DNA of 29,142 nucleotides. It comes from a virus. The notes beneath the pieces were generated by a model, which worked only from the letters and a program-made list of their open reading frames with translations, had not been told where the DNA came from and did no database searches. The position numbers were made by a program, and so were the translations under genes. The DNA lies in IMG/VR virus record IMGVR_UViG_3300007539_009602, positions 1 to 29,142 of that record, one strand, 5' to 3'. Of this stretch, positions 5,871-29,142 are shown in pieces; the first letter of the stretch is position 1, and each line of letters starts with the position of its first letter.

Positions 5871-6158
5871 ATGTCGAAAAAACTAGATGAAATCATACAA
5901 AAAACCCTTGCTAATATAGAGGAAGACCGATTGGTTACTCGAGATTTGCTCGAGGACGCTATGGAATATCTTGCAAAAGATGAACACCGCCATAGAGAAA
6001 TTGGCCTTACTTTGGCAAAGTATGTTGAAACACTTCAGCGTTCAAATGAACAAATGGTGAAGGTTGCTTCACTTATACAGAAAGAAGAGAAGAAAGAGGA
6101 CGGAATCTCAAAAGAAGAAATGGACAATATTTTCTCTGCGATTGCGGAGGAAGACTAA
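5871..6158 (+). CDS. Small helical acidic protein beside the late sigma gene
   Basis: A 95-residue protein without Cys that appears entirely helical (KLDEIIQKTLANIEEDRLVTRDLLEDAMEYL, read as separate helices, then IGLTLAKYVETLQRSNEQMV). I do not recognise a named family. Residues 80-95 form an acidic tail with hydrophobic residues (SKEEMDNIFSAIAEED), of the general kind phage transcription proteins use to bind the sliding clamp. It lies 17 bases after the late sigma gene with only a weak ribosome site. Its stop overlaps the next start in TAATG, which links it to the tail gene that follows. A role with the sigma factor (gp33-like coactivator) or as a small terminase-like or assembly protein is possible; neither is shown. 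Confidence 0.68.
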   Translation: MSKKLDEIIQKTLANIEEDRLVTRDLLEDAMEYLAKDEHRHREIGLTLAKYVETLQRSNEQMVKVASLIQKEEKKEDGISKEEMDNIFSAIAEED

Positions 6159-11400: not shown

Positions 11401-14400
11401 TCCCAAACACGGTTATAAAATTTGATGAATTTTACAATTATTTAATTGATGAAGTCTCCATTCTAGAATCAGAAATATTTAATTACAATAATTCAATATC
11501 TCAACTTAAAACACAAAAATCAAATACCACTAACGATGTAATCAAAGGACTAGAAGACGATAGATTTAGAAATGACGTAAATGCTTACGAACAAGCTGTT
11601 CAAAGAGTTGCAAAGGTTCTTTTAGAATCTTACACACAAGCATTGATAAATTCTTTTTCAATTAATGAATTAAGAGAGTTAATTGATAGCATTCCCGGAT
11701 CTGAGATATTTGCCACAGTTGTTGCAACAGCATCTTGCCCTAATACATCATCAATAGATGAGTTTCTAGATGATATTGTTGGAGGAATAGAACTAAATCC
11801 ATGTATGGGAAAAAATACTTGGTATTTTCCTGATATTCCTACTTTACCCGGTTTTGCTTGGCTCGATGTGTTAAAGTTTATGTTAAATAAATTTATCGAA
11901 AAGATAGTGAAATCAATCTTCGCAATATTAACCAAATATCTTCTAAAGACATTGCAAAAGATTTTAGCAAGAGCTTGTGATTTATTATCAGGCGTTGGTA
12001 GAACCTTGTTAGGAAATGATGATACAGGCTTGTTAGACGCCATTGCTGACGCTTTCTGCGAAGGAGATAGGTTTACACCCTTTGGAGAAACTCAAGAGGA
12101 TTTAGGGGCAATTTCGGACGCTACAACAACACTTCAAGATTTTGTTTATCGCTACAGTACGCAAAAGATAGATAGAGAACCTGTTGTAGACTGGGCTACA
12201 GCTGTAAGTCAAAACATTAATTCAAGTCAATTTTTAAATATATTTTTAGAAGGAGCTCCTCAAGGCTCTCCTTTGTTTGATTTAATATGGGAAGCAACAC
12301 AAGAAACTGAAATGTCTAATATTCTAAGAACCGAAGACGACTTGGAAGAGTTAATAAACTTGATAGGTAGTTATCTAAATGAAGACCAAAAAGACACAAT
12401 AAGAGGCTTGTTAGAAAATCAATATGAGACATTTAATACATCAGAAGATGGCGAGACAACTTATGAAGAATTTTGTAAAAGATATTTGTGTCTAGAAGCA
12501 GACACCGGTTTCATTCCCGGTGATGACCCAAGCGATGTAATTAATTCTGATTTAGAAGATTTGTTTGATTCATTTTTAAATGGACCCGATAGCGAATTTG
12601 AAGAAGAGTTTAGCAAAATATCACTAGATCCCGGTGGTGATCCTTTCTGTGATGATCTAAATGATCCAGATGATCCAGTGGAAATAGAAGGGTCTTCGTT
12701 AATGTCACAATTACCACCAGAACTTAAAGACTTTCAAAAAGAATTAGCCGACTCTGTGTTTGCCGATTTAGAATCCGCATACATCTCAGACACAATTGAG
12801 GGAAGACATTCGTTTTTCAATAATGTCTTAGCTGATCAAGATAATGTACCATTGGTTCGAGGAACTATCTCATCGCACGAAGCAAGAGTTAGGAGAAAGA
12901 TATTATTCCCAAATGCAGCCAACACAGTTGAAGACCACCAAGACAAGTATGATGATGCAAGGAACTTCCTAAGAAGAATAATGCATTTATTTGATTTTAA
13001 AAATGAAGATGGTGGAGTTAGAACCAGCAAGGCTGATGGTGATTACCCAACACCAACAAATTTATTTCCATTGACTGTTGGAGCTTGGTTAAGATACCAA
13101 AGTGGAAGGTTTATCTTTAATGCTGATTATAAAACAAGAATTTATCTTGAAGAAGAGACATCTAGAATAGTTTCTAAAAAAGAATGGAAAAGACTTGGAT
13201 TCACCAGCAATAATATTGAATCTTTCAAAAGATTTAAACAAAAGCCTGATTTAAGATTATCTTATCGCGATAGAAATGGTGGAGATCATTTTACTTGGGG
13301 ATTTGATTTAAATTATAATTCAGTATATCTGGAAGAAAGAAACGAAGACGAGGCATTTTACAACACATCAGCTTCACCTTCATATGAATTAGAGATAAAC
13401 GAATTTATCGCAACAGCTCCCCCTTCCGGATTTAAATCAGCATTATTGAAACTTTTGCCATCTGTATTACAAACAACCTATGAGATAGATGAGGAGACTC
13501 TATTACAACTTCAAATTCCTTTTAATTTATCTGGATTCGAAGATCTTTATGAAAAATACAAAGAAGAAACCCTTGTTGTTAAGATAGATAAAGATTCTCC
13601 TGTTGGAAGAAAAAGTCCTCAAGAAGCAGCATTTATTAACTTTTTACTAGACAATCCTGAAAGAAAAGTGATCATCAATGTAGGTCAACAATTTAAAGAA
13701 AAATCTGGATTTAGTGATAACTTGGCAACATCTGAGGTCACTTTAGCTCTTGGTAAGTTTGATTCTTTGCCAAATAGACTCTATGGCAAAATGAAAGACA
13801 TGTTTGCAAAAAAATTAATTCATGGAATCTATTCTGCTTCTCGAGAAGGAAATTCTAATTCTTTCTTATTTGGATACACAAAAGATTCTGAAATAAATTA
13901 TCAAGATTTATTGTATGTAGATCCAACAGCCGATCCTAAAAACAGTGCCACTTGGAAATATTCTTACCGAGAACAAGATAAAGTATTAGGAAAATCAGCA
14001 ACAGAAAATAAGAGAGTTGTGTTTTTAGATCCTGAGGTCTATGGTGGAACCTACAAAAAACCAAAGATCTATATTCACCCTCATCCTTACAAAGGCTGGC
14101 TTGGAATTATGCAAGCATTTAATCCTGAAATGGATGGTTGCTCTCCAAAGCGTTCTGGCTGGTTATTTCTAGGAGAAGTTTCTGAGAGAGTCAATAAGCT
14201 AGAAAACTCTTTGAAAAAAGACAAAAGATTAGAATACGATCCCGATTGCGTTAGAAAAGTGCCATATGATTTGATAGCTGATTCTTCAACACACGCATAT
14301 CTAGATGGTATTGTTACTTCGACCATCAGAACTTATATAATAGAAAATATCTTAAGAACCATGCCAACCCTAGGGCAGTTAAGATTTAATTCACAAAACT

Positions 14401-16520
14401 TTGATACAGGTATGGGTTTATTTTTAATCAATAGAATGAAGGAAGAAATGAAAGACTTTCCAAATAATAGATTGTCTGGAATGATTTCTAAGCTAAGATA
14501 TTGGTATCTATTTTTAGAACAAATGGTTCAAACAGTTGAGAGAAGAATAATAACTGGTGAAATTACAAAGGATGAAAAATTAGAAGAATTATTTGCACAA
14601 ATATTAGAAGTAAAAACCTCTTATTATTACCCTTCCAGAAGAGACAGAAAGATATTCAAAAGAATAACTAAAATTGCTTGGAATAGTGATGGCGTAGTGG
14701 ATTACATGCTTTATGACTATGGCCAAGGTGCTGTGAAAACTTTGAGAGAAGGAGATCCACTATATTCAAAATTGTCCAACTTTATTGATGCGATTTCTTT
14801 TAATGCATTTGGTCCAAGCTTTAGACAAGTGCTTAAAAATATAACTGATTTCAATTTTAAAGTTAAAAAAATAAAACTGAAAGAATTGAGAATGTACACT
14901 AAAATTTATGACATTTATAGAAGTGAAGAAATAGCTACACAAATCTCATCTTATTTGGTCTTGAATGAATTTAACTCTTATCAATATAAGATACAAAAGT
15001 ATCTACCGGAAGAGCCTTATATACAAGATTTAAATAAATTTGTATTAAATCCAAAATCCGGATTAACTATTGGTCCTCCAATAAATGTCGGAACTGTAGA
15101 TGGAGAATACGCTGATTCAATTGAGAAAGAGTTGTACGGAGATGTTGTTTCTGTTGTTGATGACCCAATGACACAACACCCATTAGAAAACTTATCACCT
15201 TTCATGGATGGATTACAAAAACAAACACTAAAAGTATTTGGTGGATTTTATTTAGAAAAATATGTCATTGTAATTCCAAAGAAAGAAGTTAAAAGTGAAG
15301 ACTTTCAGGATCAATTCTCGGATGTAAGTAATAGACCAATTTCAGTTGAAAAATTTGCTGAGGTTTTTGGCGCTTTCAAACAATCAACTAAATATTCAGA
15401 AGAAACTGGTGAGCTTTTCATTTCTGATTTATTTGGAAACGCTGTTAGAGAGGAAGAAGGTTACTCTGGATCAATCGGAATAAGATTTGGAGTTAGGCTA
15501 AGCTATCTACCTCCAGAAGGATTTGATCCAAGATCAGAAGATTTTGATAATGATTACTTTAGAAACATCAGAGGCTTTAGAGGTGTTCATTATTACAAAA
15601 ACATTCCTAGTGAATTTGATTCTGAATCTTTTAAATATCCAATATCATTGGTTAATTTTGAAGAAGATATTACTGATTTCAAGATAAAAAATGTGCCTCA
15701 ATATAAAATTGACAATTTGTTGAAATGTTATATTGATAAATTAACAGAGAAGCCAGAATACAAATTCTTAATGAATTATGTTTTCAATGTCAAAGGTTTT
15801 GCAACTATGGCATCAATTTACAGTTACTATGGTTTTCCTGATTCTATTGGAGAAGATCCGGGAGAAAGACCTGATCCTTCTAGAGAATCAAATAAAACTT
15901 GGATAAGTAGAATCATGAAGAAAACAAAAATGAAAAATTATCGACTATTCAAAAAATATTACGATGTTCAAAGTTTTAATAAAGAAGAACAAACAGATCT
16001 AAAACATTCAGATGCCTTTAGAGGAAGAAGTAAACCAAAATTAGATAAAAATCTAAGCGACAACATTAGATGGTGGCAAAGAAGAAGGTTTTATGAACGT
16101 CCTTTTGATGAAGAAGGAAGAGAATGTGCAGATGGAGCATTGGCTGCATTTGATCAAAATCCTGGTAAACCTCCAAGAACAGATCAAAATATCTACAGTA
16201 CCTCAACTGTTGCTGAAGAAGAAGATCCATTAAAGAAGATTGACCCAACTCCACAAGAAGCAGAGAAAGAATTGCAAGAGCAATTTATTGAACAAAGTGA
16301 AAATAATGCTTTCACAATGCCTAATTATGATGAAGAAGAGGAAGAACAAGAGGAAGCTACTGTAACTTCTCAAACAAATACTACTGTTGCAACAACCTCT
16401 GTTGCTTTTGCAACAGAAGTTTATCAAGAAGCACAAGAAGAAGAGTCTTTATTTGGGGAAGAAGATAGAGTAGAAGGAAGCACGATTAATCAATTTAGTA
16501 ATATAACAAAGAATTTGTAG
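8409..16520 (+). CDS. Giant virion protein (2703 aa), function unknown
   Basis: A very large soluble protein between the probable spike and gp25, so probably a tail or baseplate component. I do not recognise a family. Visible parts: an N-terminal mixed domain; a Cys-bearing segment with C256/C259 (ICPTCIPNP) and C282; helical, Gln/Glu-rich coiled-coil-like stretches at about 905-950 and 1008-1050; a long amphipathic helical region at about 1149-1200 (WLDVLKFMLNKFIEKIV and after); an Asp/Glu-rich segment at about 1355-1428; a Trp/Tyr-rich region near 1889 (HPHPYKGWL); and a low-complexity acidic tail from about 2600 with a Glu run near 2641. The 8.1-kb frame has no internal stop and codon use like its neighbours. 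Ribosome site AAGGA is close before the ATG. It might be a tape-measure-like, hub or adhesin protein; sequence alone does not decide. Confidence 0.85.
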   Translation: MAGQGLPTTTETTGEINKQYIRIYLDENETSNNYLEIRVNLKEKVATASEESFTYAVENIDFINSLNSAIDNLDPNSLGYIQDTSLVRFRFERRRKNGFKLRTAYNSNNGRYFITFLYDGGKKKETFEKLMEILPEVETQFNNDNGFILPFTLDYNYFGSGVLDSVPWKSGIDAGEQHLNTKTLINDEETVEVVDDSFYTAESNTQSYTEPVISYSIEDPDGISSTFADLQKDICIKEPVVDEFGLNQNPDLKRICPTCIPNPDFIPPDWRYETIWLNEKTCNWTVRVRSEELYSEVASNPQLKEKYVRKGIVDILGYLNKQIIDQDICWNPPENASESCAQRLPQSIINQYLEIYQVPTGNGDGSTFTVYRMNPSIYDNYQIRNPIALELFGMAGRINPSSTSSEGVPSDNAKAHIEIVVPANLINLIPQDYLAEESEDQQQELESVEEVTFKGPTIKRTFKKTLPKLFKTYSEYQSFYKKTEGGHLRIGTDFDQETPDTKLYYFIKYQKQFKQFYSDLKNLLGENNYKLYSDEYGSSASYKSNSKYSGGLTQKLAGSGVKYREAVEVKILFDKSDETNPFKIRSVKAKYAGCPFYRCGVGLNAFKEKYNNRPTLMAYVSKANEMMTDIDNSRQLPAWKDFGVKYTSPELTFVSGDPDGNPDADSCLDQNESTFNDLVLGAELSFSKAVEYVFNSLNCRDFEKYDKNEYLKIMEGLSEGSLKPTINIHAQEEFEAFNKALEIQKDYWRLATDENSPIAKFYKSLTNEEMKEKGFFEKLTGKTIEDAVTNLKNKSSREEFVGELIEKINPCNWESLTLDIINCLLKGLNPAEALTTAVKSLLNSQDPESWEKIFIGLTPEQQQKIKEEIQNNFGNLPTPWEFKQQQEKKGVVKINDYEAQRQPPQNPGDLTQQENTQLLDSLQEADDEILQLEESIRENNNKINSYRPIIGDMFIINSKPIIGEYKSEDKENEKSEFMFLKSISDKDIFLLFYTEEEIPNTVIKFDEFYNYLIDEVSILESEIFNYNNSISQLKTQKSNTTNDVIKGLEDDRFRNDVNAYEQAVQRVAKVLLESYTQALINSFSINELRELIDSIPGSEIFATVVATASCPNTSSIDEFLDDIVGGIELNPCMGKNTWYFPDIPTLPGFAWLDVLKFMLNKFIEKIVKSIFAILTKYLLKTLQKILARACDLLSGVGRTLLGNDDTGLLDAIADAFCEGDRFTPFGETQEDLGAISDATTTLQDFVYRYSTQKIDREPVVDWATAVSQNINSSQFLNIFLEGAPQGSPLFDLIWEATQETEMSNILRTEDDLEELINLIGSYLNEDQKDTIRGLLENQYETFNTSEDGETTYEEFCKRYLCLEADTGFIPGDDPSDVINSDLEDLFDSFLNGPDSEFEEEFSKISLDPGGDPFCDDLNDPDDPVEIEGSSLMSQLPPELKDFQKELADSVFADLESAYISDTIEGRHSFFNNVLADQDNVPLVRGTISSHEARVRRKILFPNAANTVEDHQDKYDDARNFLRRIMHLFDFKNEDGGVRTSKADGDYPTPTNLFPLTVGAWLRYQSGRFIFNADYKTRIYLEEETSRIVSKKEWKRLGFTSNNIESFKRFKQKPDLRLSYRDRNGGDHFTWGFDLNYNSVYLEERNEDEAFYNTSASPSYELEINEFIATAPPSGFKSALLKLLPSVLQTTYEIDEETLLQLQIPFNLSGFEDLYEKYKEETLVVKIDKDSPVGRKSPQEAAFINFLLDNPERKVIINVGQQFKEKSGFSDNLATSEVTLALGKFDSLPNRLYGKMKDMFAKKLIHGIYSASREGNSNSFLFGYTKDSEINYQDLLYVDPTADPKNSATWKYSYREQDKVLGKSATENKRVVFLDPEVYGGTYKKPKIYIHPHPYKGWLGIMQAFNPEMDGCSPKRSGWLFLGEVSERVNKLENSLKKDKRLEYDPDCVRKVPYDLIADSSTHAYLDGIVTSTIRTYIIENILRTMPTLGQLRFNSQNFDTGMGLFLINRMKEEMKDFPNNRLSGMISKLRYWYLFLEQMVQTVERRIITGEITKDEKLEELFAQILEVKTSYYYPSRRDRKIFKRITKIAWNSDGVVDYMLYDYGQGAVKTLREGDPLYSKLSNFIDAISFNAFGPSFRQVLKNITDFNFKVKKIKLKELRMYTKIYDIYRSEEIATQISSYLVLNEFNSYQYKIQKYLPEEPYIQDLNKFVLNPKSGLTIGPPINVGTVDGEYADSIEKELYGDVVSVVDDPMTQHPLENLSPFMDGLQKQTLKVFGGFYLEKYVIVIPKKEVKSEDFQDQFSDVSNRPISVEKFAEVFGAFKQSTKYSEETGELFISDLFGNAVREEEGYSGSIGIRFGVRLSYLPPEGFDPRSEDFDNDYFRNIRGFRGVHYYKNIPSEFDSESFKYPISLVNFEEDITDFKIKNVPQYKIDNLLKCYIDKLTEKPEYKFLMNYVFNVKGFATMASIYSYYGFPDSIGEDPGERPDPSRESNKTWISRIMKKTKMKNYRLFKKYYDVQSFNKEEQTDLKHSDAFRGRSKPKLDKNLSDNIRWWQRRRFYERPFDEEGRECADGALAAFDQNPGKPPRTDQNIYSTSTVAEEEDPLKKIDPTPQEAEKELQEQFIEQSENNAFTMPNYDEEEEEQEEATVTSQTNTTVATTSVAFATEVYQEAQEEESLFGEEDRVEGSTINQFSNITKNL

Positions 16521-16530
16521 AGGATAACAC

Positions 16531-16953
16531 ATGTCAGTTAAAAACAATTATTTCGGAATATCAGCTCTAAGAGATATTACAGTAAAAGTGCCATTAAATA
16601 TTGAAGGTGACAATGTAGGCTATGAAACTTTAAATGAAGAAGAAATATCTGAGGTTATAAAGTTCAATTTAAAGTCAATAATCTTAACACACCCTGGGGA
16701 GCGGATGGATACCCGTTTTGGAGTTGGAATAAAGCGTTTTTTATTTGAACAAGCCGGTGATGAACTTTACCAAACAGTGCAATCTACAATATTTAATCAA
16801 ATAAGAACATATATGCCTTGGTTAACCAATGTAAACGTTCAGGTTTTTGGAGAAGACAACGAAAGAAAACTATCTGTAGCGATAAAATACAAGTTGAATA
16901 GTCCCGAGATTGTGGATTATTTTGAACTTTCTCTTTCAATGGATGAATTATAA
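16531..16953 (+). CDS. 25: Baseplate wedge protein gp25 (GPW_gp25 family)
   Basis: A core baseplate wedge component shared by T4 gp25, P2 gpW and contractile injection systems. The signature lies at residues 54-72: HPGERMDTRFGVGIKRFLF, matching the family 'T.PGER...FG.G' block with the EPR-like core. The preceding helix (EEISEVIKFNLKSIILT) and the C-terminal strands (NVNVQVFGED, KLSVAIKYKLN) are as expected. The length of 140 residues is close to T4 gp25 (132). AGAGGAT precedes the ATG; the gene begins 10 bases after the giant gene. It is followed by a 44-base gap and the gp6-like wedge gene, the same neighbour order as P2 W-J and many myophages. It should act in the virion baseplate, binding gp6 dimers. 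Confidence 0.93.
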   Translation: MSVKNNYFGISALRDITVKVPLNIEGDNVGYETLNEEEISEVIKFNLKSIILTHPGERMDTRFGVGIKRFLFEQAGDELYQTVQSTIFNQIRTYMPWLTNVNVQVFGEDNERKLSVAIKYKLNSPEIVDYFELSLSMDEL

Positions 16954-16997
16954 AAATTTTATTGCCTTAATCCTATTTATTATCAGAGGATTGACAG
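16954..16997 (+). other. 44-base gap before gp6, no gene
   Basis: This is the longest gap in the window. It is AT-rich and holds the gp6 ribosome site (AGAGGA at 16985-16990, 7 bases before ATG 16998). The stretch CCTATTTATTATC before it is only loosely like an AT-rich late promoter; no exact TATAAATA is present. I see no convincing terminator hairpin. Confidence 0.5.
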
Positions 16998-18809
16998 ATG
17001 CCGAAGAACAAAAATATTCCAATAAAGTACACTAGTAGAGACTTTAATTCAATAAAGAAAGACTTAATAGAACATGCTAAGAGATATTATCCTGATAACT
17101 ACAATGATTTCTCTGAAGCTTCCTTTGGGTCTTTAATGTTCGATACCGTTTCGTATGTAGGAGACGTGTTATCTTACTATCTAGATTATTCAGTTAATGA
17201 AGCGTTTTTAGATACAGCAATCGAGTTTCCAAATGTCAGAAGACATGCAAAGAATCTAGGTTATAATTTCACAGGAATTCCTGTTGCTTTCGGCTCAGTT
17301 GCTTTATTTATTGAAGTACCAGCAAACTCAGATGGAAACGGACCAAACCCATCATACATTCCAGTCCTTAAAAAAGGAGCTGAATTTCTTGGTGGTAATG
17401 GAACAACTTATACTTTATTAGAAGACGTTAGGTTTGATAGACCTGAGAATGATATTATAGCGGTTAAATTTAACAATGTAACAGGTCAAGCAACTCATTA
17501 TGCAATAAGATCTTTCGGTCAAGTTTCATCAGGTAAATCATTCACAGCTATTATCGACTTGTCTCAAGCAACGTTTGAGAAGTTTAGAAGAGTACAAGTA
17601 GGTGACAACACAATTTCTGAGATAATTGATGTAAGAGATGCCGAAGGTAATGTGTTTTACGAGGTTGATTTCTTATCTCAAGAAACAGTTTTCATTGAAA
17701 CTACAAACCCAACAGCTTTATCAGACGGTGTTAGATCTATAATGAAGCCATACGTAACAGCCCGTAGATTTATCTTAGAACAAGACGATACAGGTACTTA
17801 CATACAATTTGGTTTCGGATCAGATGACGATGACGATTCAGGGCTTGCAGATCCATCTCAAGTAGCTATTCAAATGCATGGCAAGAATTATGTTACAAGT
17901 AAAGCAATAGATCCAACAAAACTTTTAGGAACAGATAAGCTTGGTATTTCTCCACAAGGGACAACACTAACAGTTACCTACAGAAAAAATGATGGTAATA
18001 TCACCAATGCAGGACCAAGAACAATTAAAGAGGTTTCTTTTTCGAATCTAGTATTTAGCAATCCTAATACTTTAAATGATGGCCTTGTTAATACTGTTAA
18101 ATCTAGTTTAGAAGTTATCAATGATGAGCCGATAGTTGGTTCCTCCGTTGATTTTACAATAGATGAATTGAAAGTAAGATCAAAGAATTTCTTTGCTTCT
18201 CAAAATAGAGCTGTTACCAAAATGGACTATGAAGCAATTGCCTACAATATGCCAACAAAATTTGGACAAGTAAAAAGAGTTAACGTTATCAACAATCCTT
18301 TTGCAACCAATAAAAAGTTAGCTATTTACGTTGCTTCGACGGATGATCAAGGTGCATTTGTTCAGACAAATCAGGCAACAAAAAATAATTTAAAAAATTG
18401 GTTAAACCAATATGCATCGATAAATGATGTTATTGAAATATTTGACGCTAAGATAGTAAACTTTTCAATTGATTTTTCAATAATGACAGATAACAGGTAT
18501 GATACCTCGACAGTATTGGCTAACGCTATCACAAGACTTAAGAATAAATATTCAGAAAAGTTTTACATTGGTGAGCCGATTTACATCAATGACATCTATA
18601 ATCTTCTCTCAAAAACAGAAGGTGTGATTGATGTTAAAGAAGTTAAGATTGAAAATAAAAACGCTTCAAACCACGGAACAGGATATTCGAATATTCAGTT
18701 GGAAATGCAGGATATGATCTCGCAAGACAGAACTTACTACAAGGCTCCAAAAAACGTAATATTTGAACTCAAGTTTCCGAATCAAGACATCAAAGGAAAA
18801 GCAAAATAA
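16998..18809 (+). CDS. 6: Baseplate wedge protein gp6 (Baseplate_J-like)
   Basis: The main wedge protein that joins the inner baseplate into a ring, as T4 gp6 and P2 gpJ do. N-terminal IKYTSRDFNSIKKDLI and SFGSLMFDTVSYVGDVLSYY (residues 10-60) are typical for gp6 homologues of T4-like phages. The C-terminal half has the J-type block RAVTKMDYEAIAYNMP (from about residue 404), then a strand with VKRVNVI. The region YASINDVIEIFDAKIVNFSI fits the late J domain. Length 603 is near T4 gp6 (660). An acidic DDDDD run around residue 275 sits in a surface loop. The gene follows gp25 and its stop overlaps the next start in TAATG, so it is co-translated with the DNRLRE-like gene. Confidence 0.92.
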   Translation: MPKNKNIPIKYTSRDFNSIKKDLIEHAKRYYPDNYNDFSEASFGSLMFDTVSYVGDVLSYYLDYSVNEAFLDTAIEFPNVRRHAKNLGYNFTGIPVAFGSVALFIEVPANSDGNGPNPSYIPVLKKGAEFLGGNGTTYTLLEDVRFDRPENDIIAVKFNNVTGQATHYAIRSFGQVSSGKSFTAIIDLSQATFEKFRRVQVGDNTISEIIDVRDAEGNVFYEVDFLSQETVFIETTNPTALSDGVRSIMKPYVTARRFILEQDDTGTYIQFGFGSDDDDDSGLADPSQVAIQMHGKNYVTSKAIDPTKLLGTDKLGISPQGTTLTVTYRKNDGNITNAGPRTIKEVSFSNLVFSNPNTLNDGLVNTVKSSLEVINDEPIVGSSVDFTIDELKVRSKNFFASQNRAVTKMDYEAIAYNMPTKFGQVKRVNVINNPFATNKKLAIYVASTDDQGAFVQTNQATKNNLKNWLNQYASINDVIEIFDAKIVNFSIDFSIMTDNRYDTSTVLANAITRLKNKYSEKFYIGEPIYINDIYNLLSKTEGVIDVKEVKIENKNASNHGTGYSNIQLEMQDMISQDRTYYKAPKNVIFELKFPNQDIKGKAK

Positions 18810-20605
18810 TGGCTATTAAAAAATACTTTGCAACAGCAGACAACACCATCTCTAATGCTTTTGATGAAACTCTTTTATCATCAAACAAAGCAACAGGCTC
18901 CAATATGGGAGCTTCTGATATTTTGGAGGTCTTTCAAATTTACGGACAGGTTACAACCAGCTCATCAGAGCTTTCAAGAATTTTGATTCAATTTGACACA
19001 GATCAAATATCAGCGGATAGAACAGCTGAAAAAATACCAGCATCTGGTTCTGTTAAGTTCTATCTCAATCTTTACAACGCTGAACATTCCTCGACTTTGC
19101 CTGAGAATTTTGATCTCACAATCTCCGCTGTGTCTCAATCATGGCAAGAAGGTAATGGACTTGATATGGTCAATTACACTGACAAGACATACAACGGAAC
19201 CGGTTCTAACTGGCAAAACGCTTCAGGAATTCCAATATCTGAAATAACAAAATTTACATTTAGCAGCGACACAGCTTCTGATTATGGTGCCGATGCAGCT
19301 GCAAACTATATAAAACTTTATAACAAAAGTACACTTATTAATTTTTGGTTTGACGATGGAGCAGGAGATAGCGATGGTGGAAGTGGAACTTGGGTTGAAA
19401 CCACTATTAATAACACAGGATCAAAAACTGACTTTGCAGCAGATTTTGCAGCTGTTGTTAATGGTAATTCTAACTTCTCTGCAAATGTGATAAGTAATAT
19501 TGTTTATGTAACAGCTTCAACAGCTGGAAAGGCAACTGCCCCTGTGGAAGAAATAGGAACAATATCAGGTCTAGCAACTGAGGTTCATCTTTCTGGTGCC
19601 AACTTTACTGCTTGGGATTCTGCCGGAGGTGATTATCACGCTTCTCCAACATTTAATAAAAACTTTTATGAAGGCTATGAAAATCTTTCTGTTGACGTCA
19701 CATCTCTTGTTGAAGAGTGGCTTGATGGAACAAAAGACAATTATGGTTTTGGAATAAAACTTAAAGATAACTTGGAATCAGCCACAAAGTCTTATTACAC
19801 AAAAAAATTCTTTGCAAGAGGAACCGAGTTCTTTTTCAACAGACCAAGTCTAGAAGCTAAGTGGAATGATGCTTTAACGGACGATAGAGGTGCTTTCTTT
19901 GCGTCTTCTTCGCTTGCCCCTGCCAATGATAACCTAAACACTTTGTACCTCTACAATCGCATTAGAGGGCGTTTAAGAGACATACCTGCTGTGGGCACTG
20001 ATGACATCGAAGTGTCACTTTACACAGAAGCCGGAGGAACTCAAATTGGTTCTACGTTTACTGGTTCACATGTTTCAACTGGAATCTACAAATGTAGCGT
20101 TTACGCTGACACAGATGATACGTCAATAATTGATGTTTGGCATTCAGGTGGAGTTGAGTATCACACAGGTTCAATCTCGGTTTTATCAGAAAATGCGGAG
20201 ATATTAGACGAAAACACAAGATATCTTCTTTCAATTCCAAACTTGAATAAAGAATACAGAAACACAGATAAAGTAAGATTTAAGCTATATGTAAGACCAA
20301 AGAATTGGTCTCCGACAATTTACACAGTTGCAAAAGCGACACCAGAATCGACAGTTATTCATTCAGCTTCATATGAGATTTGCAGATCAATTGATAACTT
20401 AGTGGTTATTCCGCACGATACAGGCTCTAATTTATCTACTAAATTGTCATACAATGTTAGTGGTAATTATTTTGACATAGATATGTCTTACTTTGAGCCC
20501 GGTTATGATTACGATATAAAGTTTGCTTTTTATGATGAATATCTTGAAAACTGGAACCACCAACCTTATCAATTTAAATTTAAAGTGAGAGAAGATGAGT
20601 ATTAA
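18809..20605 (+). CDS. DNRLRE-like virion protein with an inserted domain
   Basis: A 598-residue beta-rich protein, probably extracellular on the virion. The opening (IKKYFATADNTISNAFD, then SRILIQFDTDQI) and the block VDVTSLVEEWLDGTKDNYGF (residues 295-314) followed by IKL look like a DNRLRE-type domain: a beta-sandwich in which 'D(V/T)T.lV..Wl.G...N.G' is the usual mark. Between the two halves lies an insert of about 120 residues (about 145-270) rich in Ala, Ser, Thr and Asp (TASDYGADAAANYIKLY), probably a separate beta domain. The C-terminal part (about 350-598) is more beta-strands with no match I can name. It sits between gp6 and the LamG giant, overlapping the latter by 11 bases, so it may be an accessory baseplate or fibre attachment protein. 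Family call is by motif only. Confidence 0.62.
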   Translation: MAIKKYFATADNTISNAFDETLLSSNKATGSNMGASDILEVFQIYGQVTTSSSELSRILIQFDTDQISADRTAEKIPASGSVKFYLNLYNAEHSSTLPENFDLTISAVSQSWQEGNGLDMVNYTDKTYNGTGSNWQNASGIPISEITKFTFSSDTASDYGADAAANYIKLYNKSTLINFWFDDGAGDSDGGSGTWVETTINNTGSKTDFAADFAAVVNGNSNFSANVISNIVYVTASTAGKATAPVEEIGTISGLATEVHLSGANFTAWDSAGGDYHASPTFNKNFYEGYENLSVDVTSLVEEWLDGTKDNYGFGIKLKDNLESATKSYYTKKFFARGTEFFFNRPSLEAKWNDALTDDRGAFFASSSLAPANDNLNTLYLYNRIRGRLRDIPAVGTDDIEVSLYTEAGGTQIGSTFTGSHVSTGIYKCSVYADTDDTSIIDVWHSGGVEYHTGSISVLSENAEILDENTRYLLSIPNLNKEYRNTDKVRFKLYVRPKNWSPTIYTVAKATPESTVIHSASYEICRSIDNLVVIPHDTGSNLSTKLSYNVSGNYFDIDMSYFEPGYDYDIKFAFYDEYLENWNHQPYQFKFKVREDEY

Positions 20606-23600
20606 AGATTTTTTTTACAAAAAAGAAGTTGTTCTTGAAGACCAATCAAAGCTAACTTCTTCGGTTGAATCTGCGGATTTAATTGAGGAAATAAGAGAGC
20701 AAAATAAAACTTTTGTTCCTGATGTAGATTTTTCTGATCCAAAAAACTTCGCAAGATTTGGTTCTGCTAAAGAATATTACGAAGGCTCTATCAAAAGAAT
20801 TTATGAACAATACCCTTACGATGGCTCCGAAGCAGAAAAACTAAGCTTTTATAATGATTCAACGTTTCTCGATCAATGGTTATTTGACAACAAATATCCA
20901 AAATCTACCGGTTATGCCATATTCTCAGCTGGAGGTTGGGGAACTGGTACAACAATTACTGACTATGGGAAGCCAAATAATTTGGAATACATATATTCTG
21001 CCGGTGGATTGCGAGAAGCTTCTCTTTATCAACATACAGGTTCTGATACAATTAGCTCAGGACAACTGAAGAATGTTTTTGACAAAGGAATCAAACATGA
21101 TTCTGATAAAAATAGAACTTTAAATTACAGAATGAAGATGGACGATGGTCTCACAATTCAATTTTGGATGAAAAAAGATGAATTCCTTCCTTCCTCAACA
21201 AAACGCGAAGTTATTCTTGACCTTTGGAATGGCGTAACCACATCTGGTTCGCATGATTACGGACGTTTGATACTTGAAATGTCTGCTTCCGATAAGCAAG
21301 AGTCTACACTAAGACTAACTCTGTATTCAGGTTCTTATGGTATTGTTGATCAACCAATAGCTCTTAGTTCTTACGGTTCAGCGTCGATAGCAAACGGAGA
21401 ATGGCAACACCACACAATTACTGTTAAAGCAGCTTCTCAAAATCTTGAGATAAACTACTACAACAACGGTATTTTGAATAGCGGTTCAATATACGGTACC
21501 ACCAATACACTAGGTGAGATACCCAACAACATTAACGGATATCTTGGAGCTTTACAAACAGCTTCATATGGAGATGATTATCATAATCAAGATATGGTTG
21601 GAGCTGGAAAGCTTTCTGCTTCTCTCGATGACTTCAGATACTGGAAAAAAGAATTAGATGCTCAATACATTAAAAACACTTGGTTCTATCCAATTGGTGG
21701 AGGATCAAATTCTGATGATAACAGAACTTCACTTGGAGTTTATTATAAGTTCAACGAAGGTGTTGTAGGAAACACAGCATACGATGCGACCGTCTTGGAT
21801 TATTCAGGAAGAATTGCAAACGGAACTTGGACAGGATACACAACTAGTTCTAGAAACACAGGATCAGCATACGTTAGTGCCTCAATATTGCAATCTGAGC
21901 CTGGTGATCCCATCATCCGGTTAGATCACCCTAGCGTTCAATCTTTGTTAACTGAGATGGCAACAAGCGGCTCTAATCACGATAGAGATAATACAATAAG
22001 AATGTATGATATGGTTCCTGCTTGGCTTCGAGAAGAAGACACAAATGGAAATATAAATTATCTTTTTCAAATACTTTCTTCGTACTTTGACACGCTTTAT
22101 TGTCAAATCAAAGAAGTACCAAAACTAAAAGACAAGAACTACTTTGACAGTGGTAATATGCCTTATGAATTTATCGACAGAATGTTGTCCGAGAAAGGAT
22201 TGTTGGTTCCAAATACGTTTGTATCCTCAGAAATTTTGAACACATTTTGGCAAAGAGACAACCAGAACAATTATTTTGAGCAATCAATTGAGAAGACAAA
22301 ACGACAAATTTATTATAACATCTACAATAATCTCGAGTTTATCTTAAAATCGAAAGGAACTGAAAAGTCGTTCCGTAATCTATTAAGATGCTTTGGTATT
22401 GACGACGAGGTCATTAAACTAAATGTTTACACTGATAATGCAACTCATTATTTAAAAGATAGATATAAGAACTCGTCTGTTAAATCTAAGTTTGTTAATT
22501 TCAACAAACCTTCAAGATTTGGAGCTTCAATAACACAAACAAGTTCCTCGATTAATTCATTGACATTTATCTCTGGCTCCGATACAGCAAGACTTGAAAG
22601 AAATAATGCTTTTACAATTGAAGGTGACGTGTTGTTCCCCGAGCCAAGAAAAGTTGAAGATAATGATTACTTTGTTGCATCATTTATTTCAAGCTCGATA
22701 TTTGGCTTTCACGAGGCGAATTCTTCGGATAGCACCGATTACACCTTTGGTGGCTCAAACGACGCCAATTTGCAATTTTACGCCGTTAAAGAGGAAGTTG
22801 GATCTACCTCTGTAAAGTTCGTTGTAAAAAATGCTGATGATTCAATTGTTGTCGAATCTGATTTGTTCGAGGAAGTATACACAAATGAGAGATGGAACTT
22901 TTCTTTGACTGTTGAACCGGTTGGATATCCTTTTGCTGGTTCTTTCTTAAGCTCATCAAATCCAGATTACAACATCAGACTTTATGGCGTTACCTACAAT
23001 AATGAAGAAATCAAAAACGAATTCACCTTAACTGCTTCTGTTAGCAATACCATTGGTAACTCTTTGTTAACAAAACCAAAAAGACTGTATGTTGGAGCAA
23101 ATAAGACCAATTTTACAGGTTCAACAATAGCTTCAACAGATGTAAAGATCGGTTCAATAAGAATGTGGATGGATAAATTGTCTAACGAAGCTATTCAACA
23201 ACACAATTTAGACCCCAAAAATTATGGACACAACAAAATCTATGGTTCGCCAACCGTATTTTTCCATGATATTTCTGGTTCTTCGCAAATTCCTGCCATG
23301 GATTCTCTTATTCTTCATTGGAATTTTGATGAAAATGCGTCTTCTGATGCAAGTGGAGAGTTTATTGTTGAGGATTTCTCAAGCGGATCGACCTCAAGTC
23401 TCTATGGTTGGGCGTCAAATATTATTGAAAGAGAAAACAAAGGTCTTGGTTTGGACTTTCCTGCGTCTGAAGAAGTGTTTACAAACGAATTTATCTTTGC
23501 GAGAAGAAAAGAATTGCCCGAAATATCGTTCACCGACGATAGAATCACAATAATGGACGATGAAAAAGAGTTTTTTATTGAAGACGAAGACACAACCGAC

Positions 23601-26600
23601 AATATTTTCTCTCTTGAGAAGTCAATGAATCAATCAATTTCCGAGGAAATGATAAGAACATTCTCGACAATGAAAGAATATGCAAATCTTTTTGCCAAAC
23701 CTGTTGATTATTATCGCCAAGATTACAAGCGTTTAAGAAAAGCTCGCTCTCTATTCTTTGAGAGAACCACCGGAAATCCTGACTTTGATAAGTTTACTGA
23801 ATATTTTAAGTGGATTGATACATCCGTATCTTTCTTTATCGAACAATTAAAGCCCGCTTCTGTTACATTCAATGAAGGAATTGCAAACGTTGTTGAGTCT
23901 CATATATTTGAAAGACCAAAGAACGAAAGAAAGTTTCCAACCGTAAAAACCCTTCAATCTACAATGGGTTCTTTGCGAGGTATTGGAGAGCTTGACTACA
24001 ATTGGAAGTTTGGACATGCTCCTGACTACAAAAGCTCAACAGATGATATTCATTGTCTTTGGAAAAAAGAAAGAGAAGTTCGAGAAGACATAGCTGATAG
24101 AGAAACAATAAGAAAAATACTTGGTTCAAAGACCTCTGGAATAATCAAAAGACTTGGAGATCCTACAACCAATCCTCAAACTGCTTACATAGCTCAAGGT
24201 TACGCTGAGGCAACGAGAAGGTTTTCAAAACCTTACAAATTAACAGCAGAGGCTTCAACTACAATTCATGGCGGAACAAATTACAACGAGAATAGAAATA
24301 GAGACTTTATTTTTGATAATATCAAACCTCATGGCTCAAAGACATCAACAGGAATTCCTGTAAATGTTGTCGTAGTAGGTGTGGGACCAGGTCAAGGAAT
24401 AATTAATTCATCTGTATGTGATGATATAGAAGATCCAAACAAAAAAGAAAAATACAACTTTAGAATGACCGTTGGTAAAGACTCGTCAGGTGATGGTTCA
24501 CAACCCTCAACAGGATCTTTGGACTTGGTTTATGAAGTTAAGTCCGCTTATGGTTCTCCATTTAATATTGTTTCAGGAAATGTAGACGATGGAACAAATA
24601 GAACTGTAGATCAGAATTACAAAGATAGTGTAATTTTGACTAACTTGCATTCTGATACCACATATATTTCAAATGATGTTCCAATGCAAGGACCTTTTAC
24701 TGAAACTTGGGTTGGAGGTCGTCAAAATAGACATGTTCAATTGAATAAATATAATGAAGATTACACAACAACTAATAAATTGGACGATCAATACACAAGA
24801 CCAGAAGCTTATAGAATTTTGTTTGGAGAACATCCTGATGAATCTGTTCAAGATGGTGCTCTTGGGATTGTTGGCCCTGATTATGGTGGACCTTATCCTG
24901 ATACCACAAGAAAGTGGGCAATTTATTACAGAGACCTCAGAGGAAAGCGTCCTTACAATATTCAAAATATCCAAGGCGACCAGTATCGTCAAGGAAACTA
25001 CACGGAGAAGTATGAATACTTTAATTCTGTTGGTCGTTCTGAGAACAATTTAAGATTTAAAAAACAAGCAGACACTTGGGATTTTCTTGCAGAGGAAGTG
25101 AAAAATGAACTTCCTGAAACGACAAATCAAATTGGTCTATTTGCTGTTGAACCTTCCAATGACGGAAACATAGCATCAGGTTTTGATTCTAACAGACATA
25201 ATGCAATTTCTGATGCTGTGTTTGGAAATTTCTCAATTGCTTTGCCAGATCAGTATTCTCCACCAACTAGTGAATTTATTGGAATAACTGCTTCTATTAA
25301 TGAAGTTTCTACTGAAACACAGATAGAGATAACCACAGCAGATATAGCCATAGATAGCGAAACTGACATTAGCTCTTCTTTGTTTTCTGAATTTAGAAAT
25401 AGATTTTTTGCACTAGGAAATTTTGTTAATTCATTTTTATTACAAGGTGCCGGCAATACAATCAATGGACTATCTGGTTCTTTTAGTTTCTCGTTTTTTT
25501 ACGAAGCTGAGACCAACACAACAAGTTTTAACAGATTTGACATTAATGAAGGATCTAACCTTAGACTTTATGTTTATCACGATGTTGGTTCCAGCGATCA
25601 GTGGAACGTAGGGTTTCGTGATACATCAGGTAATAATGAAGATCTTTTTGTATTTCAAGGAGGATACACACAAGCAAACACAATTCATCACATTGTTTTT
25701 GTTATTGATGAAGACATGGCAAACGTTAGTCCAAAATTATACATAGACGGAGACGAAATTTCTCTAACCACTACTCCTCCTTCGACACACCCAGCCTTGA
25801 ACATAGATGAAATACATTCAATAAGATTTTCAGATAACTCGTTTTTACAAGACTTAGTATTTTGGGAAAAGAAATTAACACAAGAAGATATTAACTCATT
25901 AGTTGAATTTAAACAAATTTATGCTGGTTGGTCTTGGAAAGACCCTTCTACTCATGTATCAGCAAGTTACATCAATAACTGGTGGAAAATAGGATATGAA
26001 GATTACTTAGATGATATTTTAACTGTTGGAGATAATTTAAAAGATCATTCTAGTAATATCACTATTTCTTCAAGTTACTCTGGAACAGGCAATGGAATTG
26101 ATTTAAATTTACTAGCCAATAACGCAAATTACAATACCTTATATACCACCGGTGGTGTTGGAACAGTTAGATCTGAGTTGGAAATATTATCAGACGTGCA
26201 ACAAAAAATGTTAAATAGATTTACCGATTACACCTCCAATACAAGTTCAGCCGGTTGGAGTGCGTATAATCCTTTTACTATGACTTTTACTTTTGGAACT
26301 CAATATTATGTTGAAATGACAAGTAGCACAGCCGGAACAAATATAATATCTTTAAATCCCACAGTTATGGATTTTGCAGCAGGCGGAAACATTTCAAACA
26401 ATGGAACTCCCAACACCCTATTTAGAAACATTGTTCAAGTTGAATCTGATTTTATCACAGGGTCAACAAGAAATAGAACCATAATTACCTCTCGATTCTC
26501 TGCGCCGGGTGGTGTTGAAGTTCAAACCTATGGATATCTTGATGCTTATGCTCATGAATACTCAGTTCACAATAACTTAAACTACAGAAACTTATCGATT

Positions 26601-27791
26601 AGAGGCTCGGGAAGCGGTGAATCTGGAACGATAAGAGTAAACAGTCATGCTAACACTAGAGACGGTTTAAGAACGCTCTATCAACGTCCTATGGGTCGCG
26701 GAGGAGTCGATTCTGTTTATGAACAACTCGATGAGACAGATTATAATCTAACAGCATCATTTCACAAAGTTCCGAGAAATACCTTGGTTAGACCAAAGTC
26801 TTCACCAACAAAAGCAGTAAACCTATCAGGATCTTCTGTTTTAACTCAAGAATCCAAGTTAATAAACTACAGTTTAACTGGGTATTCAAGTTCTGGTGCT
26901 ATATCGTTTTCTGGTTGGATGAAGCTAATTTCATTCAATGGGCATCTTTTTGCATTTCAAGACTCTGCGACCGATTATCCTTATGATTTTTCCTATCAAG
27001 CCTACAATGCTATTAGTGGAATTTATATTTTTATGTATTCAACTACCGGATTAATGAATTTTTATTCTTGGAATAATGCTGATCTTGGAGTAACAAATGA
27101 TTATTGGCTTGATTGGCATCACTATGTGATCTCTTGGGATGGTAATCTTTCAAGTGCTCCAATATTGTATTTAAATGGACAAACAGGAGTTACAGCAAAT
27201 TCTGTTGTTGTAAACGGTGGTACTAGAAAAGATTTTGACAAAATACAAATAGGTTCAAGTCAACAATTACCATATTATGACAACAATAATGCAAACTATC
27301 AAGACCTTGTTTTCTTTTCATCAACAATTAATCTAGCACAAGCTCAAGAACTGTATAACAATGGAAAACGTTTTGATGTCACAAAACATAGTTTAAAAGC
27401 AAATATTATTGACTATTGGAACTTAACCAATGAATATCAAGACATTGTAGAACCTGGGGAAGATTTTGGAGAGAATCTAGAATTTAGTCCAAAAATAGGA
27501 AGTAACATCTTGTCATCAGTTGGTAAAATTTATGAACAAGACCCAGTTCAAGGCAGTTTTGTGATTTCTACTAAAAATTTAAAAAACAATCTTAATTACC
27601 AATCAACAATACCGGCATCTGATTACAACTATTCTTGGGTAACTTCTTCGCTTGGTGATAATTATAATGTGCGAAGTGGAACACAAAAAGTGTTTGGTTA
27701 TTGGCCAAAAGATGGACTAAATAAAGTCAATGGAGTTATCGACACAGCAATAACTTTTCCATCATCTTCAACTGAATATATTTACTTGTAA
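20595..27791 (+). CDS. Giant baseplate/adhesion protein: gpI-like region with multiple LamG domains
   Basis: A 2398-residue virion protein. Residues about 184-390 form a LamG/concanavalin-like domain (LTIQFWMKKDEF ... NGEWQHHTITVKA ... LDDFRYWKKELDAQYI ... YYKFNEG). Residues about 469-620 resemble the P2 gpI/'phage tail protein' family: MVPAWLREED, NYLFQILSSYFDTLY, then LEFILKSKGTEKSFRNLLRC, like the family's KGT segment. More LamG-like regions lie at about 661-875 (IRMWMDKLSNEAIQQHN), 1609-1776 (HHIVFVIDED ... DLVFWEKKLTQEDIN) and 2099-2259 (WLDWHHYVISWDGN ... DLVFFSSTINLAQAQELYNN). Such domains commonly bind glycans, so a receptor or host-surface role is likely. The gp25-gp6-gpI order fits P2 W-J-I. 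It ends with TAA directly followed by TAG, and the next gene is in the same frame. The LamG calls are fair, the gpI call moderate. Confidence 0.8.
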   Translation: MSIKDFFYKKEVVLEDQSKLTSSVESADLIEEIREQNKTFVPDVDFSDPKNFARFGSAKEYYEGSIKRIYEQYPYDGSEAEKLSFYNDSTFLDQWLFDNKYPKSTGYAIFSAGGWGTGTTITDYGKPNNLEYIYSAGGLREASLYQHTGSDTISSGQLKNVFDKGIKHDSDKNRTLNYRMKMDDGLTIQFWMKKDEFLPSSTKREVILDLWNGVTTSGSHDYGRLILEMSASDKQESTLRLTLYSGSYGIVDQPIALSSYGSASIANGEWQHHTITVKAASQNLEINYYNNGILNSGSIYGTTNTLGEIPNNINGYLGALQTASYGDDYHNQDMVGAGKLSASLDDFRYWKKELDAQYIKNTWFYPIGGGSNSDDNRTSLGVYYKFNEGVVGNTAYDATVLDYSGRIANGTWTGYTTSSRNTGSAYVSASILQSEPGDPIIRLDHPSVQSLLTEMATSGSNHDRDNTIRMYDMVPAWLREEDTNGNINYLFQILSSYFDTLYCQIKEVPKLKDKNYFDSGNMPYEFIDRMLSEKGLLVPNTFVSSEILNTFWQRDNQNNYFEQSIEKTKRQIYYNIYNNLEFILKSKGTEKSFRNLLRCFGIDDEVIKLNVYTDNATHYLKDRYKNSSVKSKFVNFNKPSRFGASITQTSSSINSLTFISGSDTARLERNNAFTIEGDVLFPEPRKVEDNDYFVASFISSSIFGFHEANSSDSTDYTFGGSNDANLQFYAVKEEVGSTSVKFVVKNADDSIVVESDLFEEVYTNERWNFSLTVEPVGYPFAGSFLSSSNPDYNIRLYGVTYNNEEIKNEFTLTASVSNTIGNSLLTKPKRLYVGANKTNFTGSTIASTDVKIGSIRMWMDKLSNEAIQQHNLDPKNYGHNKIYGSPTVFFHDISGSSQIPAMDSLILHWNFDENASSDASGEFIVEDFSSGSTSSLYGWASNIIERENKGLGLDFPASEEVFTNEFIFARRKELPEISFTDDRITIMDDEKEFFIEDEDTTDNIFSLEKSMNQSISEEMIRTFSTMKEYANLFAKPVDYYRQDYKRLRKARSLFFERTTGNPDFDKFTEYFKWIDTSVSFFIEQLKPASVTFNEGIANVVESHIFERPKNERKFPTVKTLQSTMGSLRGIGELDYNWKFGHAPDYKSSTDDIHCLWKKEREVREDIADRETIRKILGSKTSGIIKRLGDPTTNPQTAYIAQGYAEATRRFSKPYKLTAEASTTIHGGTNYNENRNRDFIFDNIKPHGSKTSTGIPVNVVVVGVGPGQGIINSSVCDDIEDPNKKEKYNFRMTVGKDSSGDGSQPSTGSLDLVYEVKSAYGSPFNIVSGNVDDGTNRTVDQNYKDSVILTNLHSDTTYISNDVPMQGPFTETWVGGRQNRHVQLNKYNEDYTTTNKLDDQYTRPEAYRILFGEHPDESVQDGALGIVGPDYGGPYPDTTRKWAIYYRDLRGKRPYNIQNIQGDQYRQGNYTEKYEYFNSVGRSENNLRFKKQADTWDFLAEEVKNELPETTNQIGLFAVEPSNDGNIASGFDSNRHNAISDAVFGNFSIALPDQYSPPTSEFIGITASINEVSTETQIEITTADIAIDSETDISSSLFSEFRNRFFALGNFVNSFLLQGAGNTINGLSGSFSFSFFYEAETNTTSFNRFDINEGSNLRLYVYHDVGSSDQWNVGFRDTSGNNEDLFVFQGGYTQANTIHHIVFVIDEDMANVSPKLYIDGDEISLTTTPPSTHPALNIDEIHSIRFSDNSFLQDLVFWEKKLTQEDINSLVEFKQIYAGWSWKDPSTHVSASYINNWWKIGYEDYLDDILTVGDNLKDHSSNITISSSYSGTGNGIDLNLLANNANYNTLYTTGGVGTVRSELEILSDVQQKMLNRFTDYTSNTSSAGWSAYNPFTMTFTFGTQYYVEMTSSTAGTNIISLNPTVMDFAAGGNISNNGTPNTLFRNIVQVESDFITGSTRNRTIITSRFSAPGGVEVQTYGYLDAYAHEYSVHNNLNYRNLSIRGSGSGESGTIRVNSHANTRDGLRTLYQRPMGRGGVDSVYEQLDETDYNLTASFHKVPRNTLVRPKSSPTKAVNLSGSSVLTQESKLINYSLTGYSSSGAISFSGWMKLISFNGHLFAFQDSATDYPYDFSYQAYNAISGIYIFMYSTTGLMNFYSWNNADLGVTNDYWLDWHHYVISWDGNLSSAPILYLNGQTGVTANSVVVNGGTRKDFDKIQIGSSQQLPYYDNNNANYQDLVFFSSTINLAQAQELYNNGKRFDVTKHSLKANIIDYWNLTNEYQDIVEPGEDFGENLEFSPKIGSNILSSVGKIYEQDPVQGSFVISTKNLKNNLNYQSTIPASDYNYSWVTSSLGDNYNVRSGTQKVFGYWPKDGLNKVNGVIDTAITFPSSSTEYIYL

Positions 27792-27803: not shown

Positions 27804-29142
27804 GTGAGTTTACCATTAGATTTTGTAGGCCTTAATAGCCTAGTGGCCAAAAAAGAAAGTTTTAATAATAATACAATTGTTGATGATAAAACAGTAGTTG
27901 ATATTGTAACCAAAGATAAAGGAATAATAGTTAGAATAGAAGATATCATAGGAAAAGATATAGATTCTTTTTTAACTAATAATTTAATAGAAACTCCACC
28001 AACAGATTATGTAAGTGATAGAAGGGTCGAAGATGTAGCCCTTAAAAACATAACAATTCATTTAAATTTTAAACTCAGAGAACAACTTAGTAGATACGAC
28101 TTGACTAGTTATTCCTATGATTTTGAAGATAAAGCCAGTGTATCAGTTAACGATAGAATAATTATCATTGTAGGTTCAAGTATTTACAATCAACAAGAAG
28201 ATGAATATTATTCTTGGCCATATGCATTGGGCATTGATGGTGATGATAATTTTGTAATATTACATTCTGAAGAAAACGGTGCCTCTTATTATGTTTACAA
28301 AATAAAAGACGAAACTTACACAACAATTCAAAGAACATCAGGATACAATTCTATCACTTTAACACTTCTTGATTATGACAAAAACTTGTATAGATCATCA
28401 AGAGCAGATAAGTTTACGCAATATACAAGTAAATATTTATCATTAAAAATTAATGGTAAAGAATGGGATCATGCGAATAGAGATTTATTAAAATACGTCT
28501 TTTATCCTTTTTTTAAAGTAGCAAAAAACAAAAGTTTTTTTGCCACAAATCAAGAAATAAATAGAACTAGTGAATTTCCATTTTCTGATGGAACGGCTGA
28601 TAATATCACCATAGAAAAAAACTACGAATATGTTTTTAATTTTTGCAGTGTAGCCAAATTAAACAAGTACGGAAATAACTTAAATTTTGATGATTTTTAC
28701 AGATTTGAAGAACTTGTAAGAACAGGAACATATCCTAACTTCTTTGATCTAGAAAAATGGTTTGATGTTACAAATTTAAGTTTTTGGAGTTCAAAAATAA
28801 ACCATAAAAATTTAGTAGAATTAAATAGTGTTAGAAAAGACTATTTTAAAGTTATAAGCCTTTTGAAGAATGAAGAAAAGATAAACATACCCGATCCTAA
28901 CTATCAGATTTTAGGAAATCTAGTTAAAAGTAGTGAAAATTTTTATTCTGATCATGACGAAACACAAGTAGGAATCATTAATGCAGAATTTAATAGACTA
29001 CTTCCTTATGTCGGAGCTTTTAGTGGTGCTCCAAGATTACCTGTTTACTTTTCTGCATTGATGAATAATCTTAATGGTCCGTACGGATATAGTTCCTTCA
29101 AACAACTTCGAGCATCTCAAAATTGGATTATGAGAGCTCACA
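27804..29142 (+). CDS. Virion-associated protein, partial (runs off the window)
   Basis: An open frame of about 446 codons from GTG 27804 (MSLPLDFVGLNSLV) to the window end, with no stop. The site TAGGAG and 6-base spacing support the GTG. The protein is mixed beta and polar: IIIIVGSSIYNQQEDEYY, KYLSLKINGKEWDHANRDLL, LEKWFDVTNLSFWSSKIN. Near the window end, LMNNLNGPYGYSSFKQLRA is a segment I associate with the C-terminal part of giant LamG-type virion proteins of marine phages; this is recollection, not a search. It is in the same frame as the preceding 2398-residue protein, separated by two stops, which suggests that the pair was one gene or that this is a partner subunit. No enzyme motif is seen. 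Confidence 0.78.
   Translation, partial: MSLPLDFVGLNSLVAKKESFNNNTIVDDKTVVDIVTKDKGIIVRIEDIIGKDIDSFLTNNLIETPPTDYVSDRRVEDVALKNITIHLNFKLREQLSRYDLTSYSYDFEDKASVSVNDRIIIIVGSSIYNQQEDEYYSWPYALGIDGDDNFVILHSEENGASYYVYKIKDETYTTIQRTSGYNSITLTLLDYDKNLYRSSRADKFTQYTSKYLSLKINGKEWDHANRDLLKYVFYPFFKVAKNKSFFATNQEINRTSEFPFSDGTADNITIEKNYEYVFNFCSVAKLNKYGNNLNFDDFYRFEELVRTGTYPNFFDLEKWFDVTNLSFWSSKINHKNLVELNSVRKDYFKVISLLKNEEKINIPDPNYQILGNLVKSSENFYSDHDETQVGIINAEFNRLLPYVGAFSGAPRLPVYFSALMNNLNGPYGYSSFKQLRASQNWIMRAH

Follow-up and report, generated by a model that had tools for sequence, protein, structure and literature searches.

A 2398-residue LamG-bearing protein as a probable third baseplate wedge protein in a group of uncultured phages

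Which protein completes the baseplate wedge of a contractile tail when the genes for the first two wedge proteins are followed by a DNRLRE-like gene and then by a giant open reading frame (ORF) encoding 2398 amino acids (aa)? The question is raised by IMG/VR contig IMGVR_UViG_3300007539_009602, a 29,142-base fragment of a larger phage that was analyzed over its whole length (hereafter the window). Four + strand genes at 16531-27791 are consecutive, overlapping or nearly so: a gp25/gpW-type wedge protein (BW1; 140 aa, 16531..16953), a gp6/gpJ-type wedge protein (BW2; 603 aa, 16998..18809), a DNRLRE protein (598 aa, 18809..20605), and the 2398-aa giant (20595..27791). These ORFs lie exactly where an initial annotation, made from the letters alone, had put them; that annotation had also sought the third wedge protein, as a gpI-like domain, inside the giant. 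Gene order, a conserved core, its single copy, and profile matches to gpI and cyanophage gp7 lead us to consider it likely that the giant is the BW3 wedge protein (the T4 gp7/P2 gpI/TssG class) of a T4-superfamily contractile tail and that it doubles as a glycan-binding adhesin.

Gene order and the gpI/gp7-like core

The first two genes of the block are securely assigned by profile matches. The gp25-type protein matches PF04965 above cut-off (1.7e-8) and phrog_261, a baseplate wedge subunit (8.7e-13), and the gp6-type protein matches phrog_219, also a baseplate wedge subunit (3.2e-21), and TIGR02243, a putative baseplate assembly protein (4.9e-12), with a full-length tblastn match to gp6 of Flavobacterium phage immuto (31%). 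The order gp25-gp6-DNRLRE-giant recurs in 61 of the 64 loci having enough upstream DNA, and four ORFs in such an unbroken, collinear, and conserved order are not a product of chance. Because the order is so widely kept, the DNRLRE gene belongs to the block as a constant component in this phage group, which rules out a sporadic insertion; the initial annotation, which had described the gene as inserted between the wedge genes, was right relative to P2 and T4 but not within this group. Two cultured phages, Microcystis phage Mel-JY01 and immuto, carry homologous genes of 1336 and 1265 aa, respectively, after gp6; these too are preceded by gp25, gp6, and a DNRLRE-like gene, with one extra small gene between.

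The giant as a whole gave zero family matches when scanned against the Pfam, PHROG, and NCBIfam libraries. Against sequenced phages, the sole part to match by tblastn was residues 443-616 (E 5e-5 for Mel-JY01 and 3e-4 for immuto). The gpI/gp7-like helical domain in this part, placed at residues 463-626 (21981..22472, + strand) by tblastn, alignments, TIGR02242, Tail_P2_I, and hhalign, contains PAWLREED from residue 475 and FILKSKGTEKSFRNLL at residues 582-597, with a KSKGTE signature at residues 585-590. An alignment-based search recovered the domain in at least 80 uncultured virus loci, always within a long ORF, and the residues invariant across 65 members include the K-KGT signature.

Family profiles point the same members toward the tail proteins of the gpI class. 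TIGR02242 ("phage tail protein domain") was the top recurrent NCBIfam family, matching 25 of the 65 members at E<=1 (best 9.2e-4; the window's own segment, 0.039), while every other NCBIfam family matched at most two; going by the library-wide E-value, a single named family would be expected to collect about 0.003 matches of this kind if the members counted as independent, an assumption that does not hold. Tail_P2_I (PF09684) was the most frequent Pfam family (6/65 members, best 0.029), and when it was run over 16 whole records, it gave only three matches at E<=1, each of them at the KGT motif of a giant (best 3.0e-4), and none outside the giants. Profile-profile comparison by hhalign, controlled with 100 column-shuffled profiles, matched the domain to an alignment of 11 P2-gpI relatives (E 7e-5, score 35.8; shuffle maximum 21.9) and to eight cyanophage gp7-like proteins (E 1.3e-4, score 34.9; shuffle maximum 21.4), the latter being linked to T4 gp7 at 5.7e-8 by the same method. 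An AlphaFold2 (AF2) model of this region of the giant has helices followed by strands, in the order of the gpI/gp7 fold (core-bundle helices, then a C-terminal alpha/beta domain), but drew no gp7/gpI match from the PDB. The initial annotation's gpI-like region, at about residues 469-620, is thus borne out by searches against the gpI and tail protein I families, with matches that are individually weak, below cut-off, and centered on KGT. Its assignment to the gpI/gp7 class is supported, and the name gp7/BW3-class suits the protein better than gpI-like since gp7 proteins already put this domain in large chains.

The phage background agrees with one wedge protein of this class. Each of 13 records searched (52-484 kb) has one copy of the core, with no separate gpI/gp7 homolog found; the copy-number search of the window itself covered its 29 kb. 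A T4-type portal (PF07230) occurs in 8 of these 13 records and sheath proteins in 6. Judged by sequence, the relatives belong to the T4-superfamily contractile phages, and each has a single BW3 candidate.

Several observations weigh against a BW3 assignment. All family matches of the gpI-like region fall below curated cut-offs, and the profile matches are confined to 30-60 residues centered on the KGT region. The core did not match a small T4 gp7 alignment significantly by hhalign, so T4 gp7 is reached only via cyanophage gp7; comparisons of the domain alignment or profile with the single P2 gpI and T4 gp7 sequences were likewise insignificant, and an hmmsearch of PDB sequences with the domain-alignment profiles did not find wedge proteins. 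Foldseek with the window AF2 model gave solved-structure matches limited to the lectin part, with no gp7/gpI match in the PDB. For the insert-free core of a relative, AF2 gave a poor model (predicted local distance difference test, pLDDT, 49.7), making a fold search with it meaningless. The second conserved core segment (residues 988-1114) looked by eye like a plausible C-terminal half of gpI (strand, helices, P-A motif), an identification made by inference only that failed by profile (E 0.11, wrong register). Finally, the window is a 29-kb fragment.

These shortcomings could also be read as a sign that the giant is an adhesin or tail fiber rather than a wedge protein, its helical domain being a docking adaptor that shares KGT with gpI and the true BW3 being another, undetected protein. 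Short and weak gpI-type matches, the lack of a solved-structure match for the helical domain, and the possible reuse of TIGR02242/Tail_P2_I-like domains as adaptors would fit such a protein. However, records of up to 484 kb contain one core copy and lack Tail_P2_I matches elsewhere, the slot downstream of gp25-gp6 is the gp7/gpI place, and cyanophage proteins in the same slot are annotated gp7-like, and we therefore regard this alternative as very unlikely. The profile matches are good evidence that the giant belongs to the BW3 class, short of proof because all of them center on the same 30-60 residues. Relatives sharing the whole architecture, up to 62% identical, are present in BFVD without a descriptive name.

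LamG modules in the wedge core and the C-terminal part

Three conserved segments run in fixed order through the giants, at residues of about 43-91, 463-626, and 988-1114 in the window. Segment 0 (residues about 43-91; 20721..20867, + strand) has a profile-profile match (E 6.6e-5) to the stretch that immediately precedes the gpI-like domain in relatives; it is present in 83 giants and probably forms a helical hairpin at the N-terminus of the wedge core. The gpI/gp7-like domain forms segment 1, and segment 2 (23556..23936, + strand) is conserved by alignment in 76 of 85 giants. The wedge core is thus discontinuous, and LamG-type modules occupy both of its joints in the window's clade. LamG module 1, between segment 0 and the gpI-like domain (residues about 183-359; 21141..21671, + strand), matches PF13385 Laminin_G_3 at 2.7e-7 when scanned as a segment (31.3 bits, cut-off 27.6) and goes unreported in a scan of the whole 2398-aa chain. 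The corresponding joint spans 21-90 aa in 62 giants and 334-621 aa in all 21 window-clade giants where it was found, and the clade with the N-terminal LamG forms a single clean branch of the maximum-likelihood tree (100/100).

LamG-type module 2 separates the conserved core's two halves (residues about 628-982; 22476..23540, + strand) and is assigned from its AF2 model, Foldseek, and Laminin_G_3 matches in relatives. The model is a beta-sandwich with pLDDT mostly 85-97, Foldseek pairs it with ConA-fold proteins, including ConA-like lectins and lyases, at a probability of 0.99-1.00, and Laminin_G_3 matches the second-joint module in 9 of 49 relatives. The initial annotation's LamG domains in the giant are therefore confirmed above cut-off for module 1 and agree with a predicted ConA-like fold for module 2. 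The joint between segments 1 and 2 is bimodal, at 45-137 residues in 18 giants and 283-554 in 58, and the second-joint inserts of the two main clades are related (E 4.3e-8). Because the 18 members without the insert nest among insert-bearing ones on the midpoint-rooted tree, it is likely that, under this root, the insert was lost in the insert-free members. Further LamG-type modules follow C-terminal to the core, and a profile of one of them detects the chain's other LamG-type regions too.

The C-terminal part is where the window departs from its closest relative, the otherwise near-identical phage at locus L001. The two giants are 90-100% identical over residues 1-1450, 19-47% over about 1501-1950, and 92-98% thereafter, or about 98% identical outside the exchanged parts. 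In the divergent stretch (residues about 1491-1949; 25065..26441, + strand), which is exchanged relative to L001, each giant carries its own LamG-type module; nucleotide similarity ends at 25064 and restarts at 26442, and the L001 counterpart matches Laminin_G_3 at 3.2e-8. A further LamG-like module (residues about 2068-2329; 26797..27580, + strand) is absent from L001, with no aligned residues in 2101-2300. This mosaic pattern would fit host-binding modules. L001 also has an in-frame TAA at its positions 11243-11245, after LamG 1 and before the gpI-like segment; the codon reads TAC in the window. The TAA is either a sequence error or divides the chain at a domain border into two proteins, one with LamG and the other the wedge protein.

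Alternatively, the giant may be BW3 with LamG modules that are structural, interlocking neighboring wedges or docking separate tail fibers or spikes and making no contact with host glycans. LamG 2 sits inside the core at an ancient, deeply shared position, with the 18 insert-free members nested on the midpoint-rooted tree; it is 92-100% identical between the window and L001, unlike a fast-evolving receptor binder, and in immuto, separate tail spike/fiber genes come next. By contrast, C-terminal LamG modules have been gained and exchanged between otherwise about 98% identical giants, as receptor-binding modules are, the module fold is a lectin fold, and the precedent of Vp4 Gp119 binds cells (PMC11406892). 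We consider a purely structural role possible but doubtful. The ConA-like modules could also be polysaccharide-degrading depolymerases (alginate- or ulvan-lyase-like), with the wedge protein as an enzyme carrier: ulvan and alginate lyases are indeed the best Foldseek matches, and such activity is plausible for a marine phage. Identity to these enzymes is only 10-11%, however, TM-scores are modest, galectins, laminin, and pentraxin-like folds score alike, and Pfam gives Laminin_G_3, all of which makes an enzymatic role extremely unlikely.

If the giant is a BW3 protein that doubles as an adhesin, known wedges suggest how it might work. T4 gp6 and gp7 form a 2:1 heterotrimer, as do gpJ and gpI, and (TssF)2-TssG resembles (gp6)2-gp7 (PMC6300606). 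The giant would most likely join two gp6 copies as a (BW2)2-BW3 heterotrimer that, with gp25 at the tip, forms each of the six wedges, segments 0 and 1 supplying the helical core bundle with gp6. BW3 is the normal attachment point of receptor-binding proteins (PMC10811340), and the LamG modules may project from this place on the wedge periphery and bind host-surface glycans directly, giving each virion six times several weak lectin sites. Attachment to the host could in that case exert a pull on the wedge and contribute to triggering of the baseplate. A stronger version holds that, in this widespread and unannotated group of T4-superfamily phages, receptor binding is done by the wedge protein, whose lectins, running through both joints of the core fold, would tie glycan binding mechanically to rearrangement of the wedge and triggering of the sheath, with no separate fiber; this seems to us unlikely.

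The DNRLRE protein and other genes of the window

The DNRLRE protein matches NF033679 at 1.1e-6 with 28.8 bits, which does not reach the curated cut-off of 34; it is thus DNRLRE-like and no formal member of the family. Its relative in Mel-JY01 matches CBM96 at 5.5e-5. The protein is probably a second part of the wedge periphery, next to the giant; as an equivalent of T4 gp8 it was rejected, a match being absent. In the window it is about 125 residues longer than in L001 (598 versus 473 aa), and the nucleotide similarity of the gene to L001 breaks at 19213 and restarts at 19612, leaving an extra part at about 19214-19611.

Elsewhere in the window, genes of the sugar-metabolism type follow one another at positions 53-4423 (glycosyltransferase 2, methyltransferases, UDP-glucose/GDP-mannose dehydrogenase, and NAD-dependent epimerase). 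A 416-aa protein at 6158-7408 has a weak C-terminal match to a VanY-like peptidase (0.0026, below cut-off) and is a candidate tail-associated cell-wall enzyme. Upstream of gp25, a 2703-aa ORF (8409-16520) has zero PHROG or Pfam matches and about 92% nucleotide identity in L001. The ORF after the giant (27804-29141) is partial and without family matches; its last 72 bases (motif PYGYSSFKQLRASQNW) are L001-like, while the remainder of the ORF is not.

Comparison with known wedge proteins

Assignment of the giant to BW3 would supply the missing third wedge protein for a large group of uncultured phages with unannotated giants, and it would mean that a protein central to the assembly of a contractile machine can accommodate large lectin inserts at two internal positions. 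Should the modules bind glycans of the host, one chain would carry both host recognition and the trigger for contraction, making signal transmission in the baseplate directly testable, and the exchanged C-terminal modules would be candidate determinants of host range.

The giant shares features with each of several known systems. Like T4 gp7 (and the gp7 of Straboviridae generally), it is a large protein, in its case a probable wedge protein, encoded after gp6, with gp25 and gp6 as partners, and in both a short hydrophobic strand comes after the KGI/KGT motif region; T4 gp7, however, has 1032 aa, and there is no DNRLRE neighbor between gp6 and gp7. P2 gpI, with the Tail_P2_I (PF09684) and TIGR02242 families, shares the KGT motif followed by a strand and, in W-J-I, the gene order, and it anchors the tail fibers; gpI is nonetheless a single domain of 176 aa, and the second core segment of the giant has no gpI match. 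TssG of the type VI secretion system is comparable by role, having a BW3-class part in the (TssF)2-TssG wedge (PMC6300606), although that system has TssK as a separate adaptor. The gp7-like proteins of Kyanoviridae cyanophages (e.g., S-SCSM1 PQC12_gp015, T4-GC 826) are likewise products of giant genes (about 1,450-4,460 aa) directly after gp6 and combine a KTKGT domain with a long C-terminal extension. Their gpI-like domain is N-terminal, in contrast, within the first 230 residues, and no DNRLRE gene intervenes. Among the T4-GC 826 giants, "hypothetical proteins" of Syn1 and S-BM3, directly after gp6, contain a gp7-like KGT domain in their first 250 residues.

The closest precedent is Gp119 of Bacillus phage Vp4, a BW3 protein bearing carbohydrate-binding modules (CBMs) that decorates host cells (PMC11406892). 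As proposed for the giant, BW3 and the CBMs are in one chain, and the modules are missing from Gp119's close homologs (PMC11406892). A BW3 protein with CBMs and giant gp7-like proteins are thus both already on record, and the new points here are the conserved four-gene block and the LamG modules at two internal joints. Gp119 comprises 831 aa with CBM16/xylanase-type modules and belongs to the Herelleviridae, whereas the giant comprises 2398 aa with LamG/ConA-type modules in both joints, a long mosaic C-terminus, and a DNRLRE gene between gp6 and BW3.

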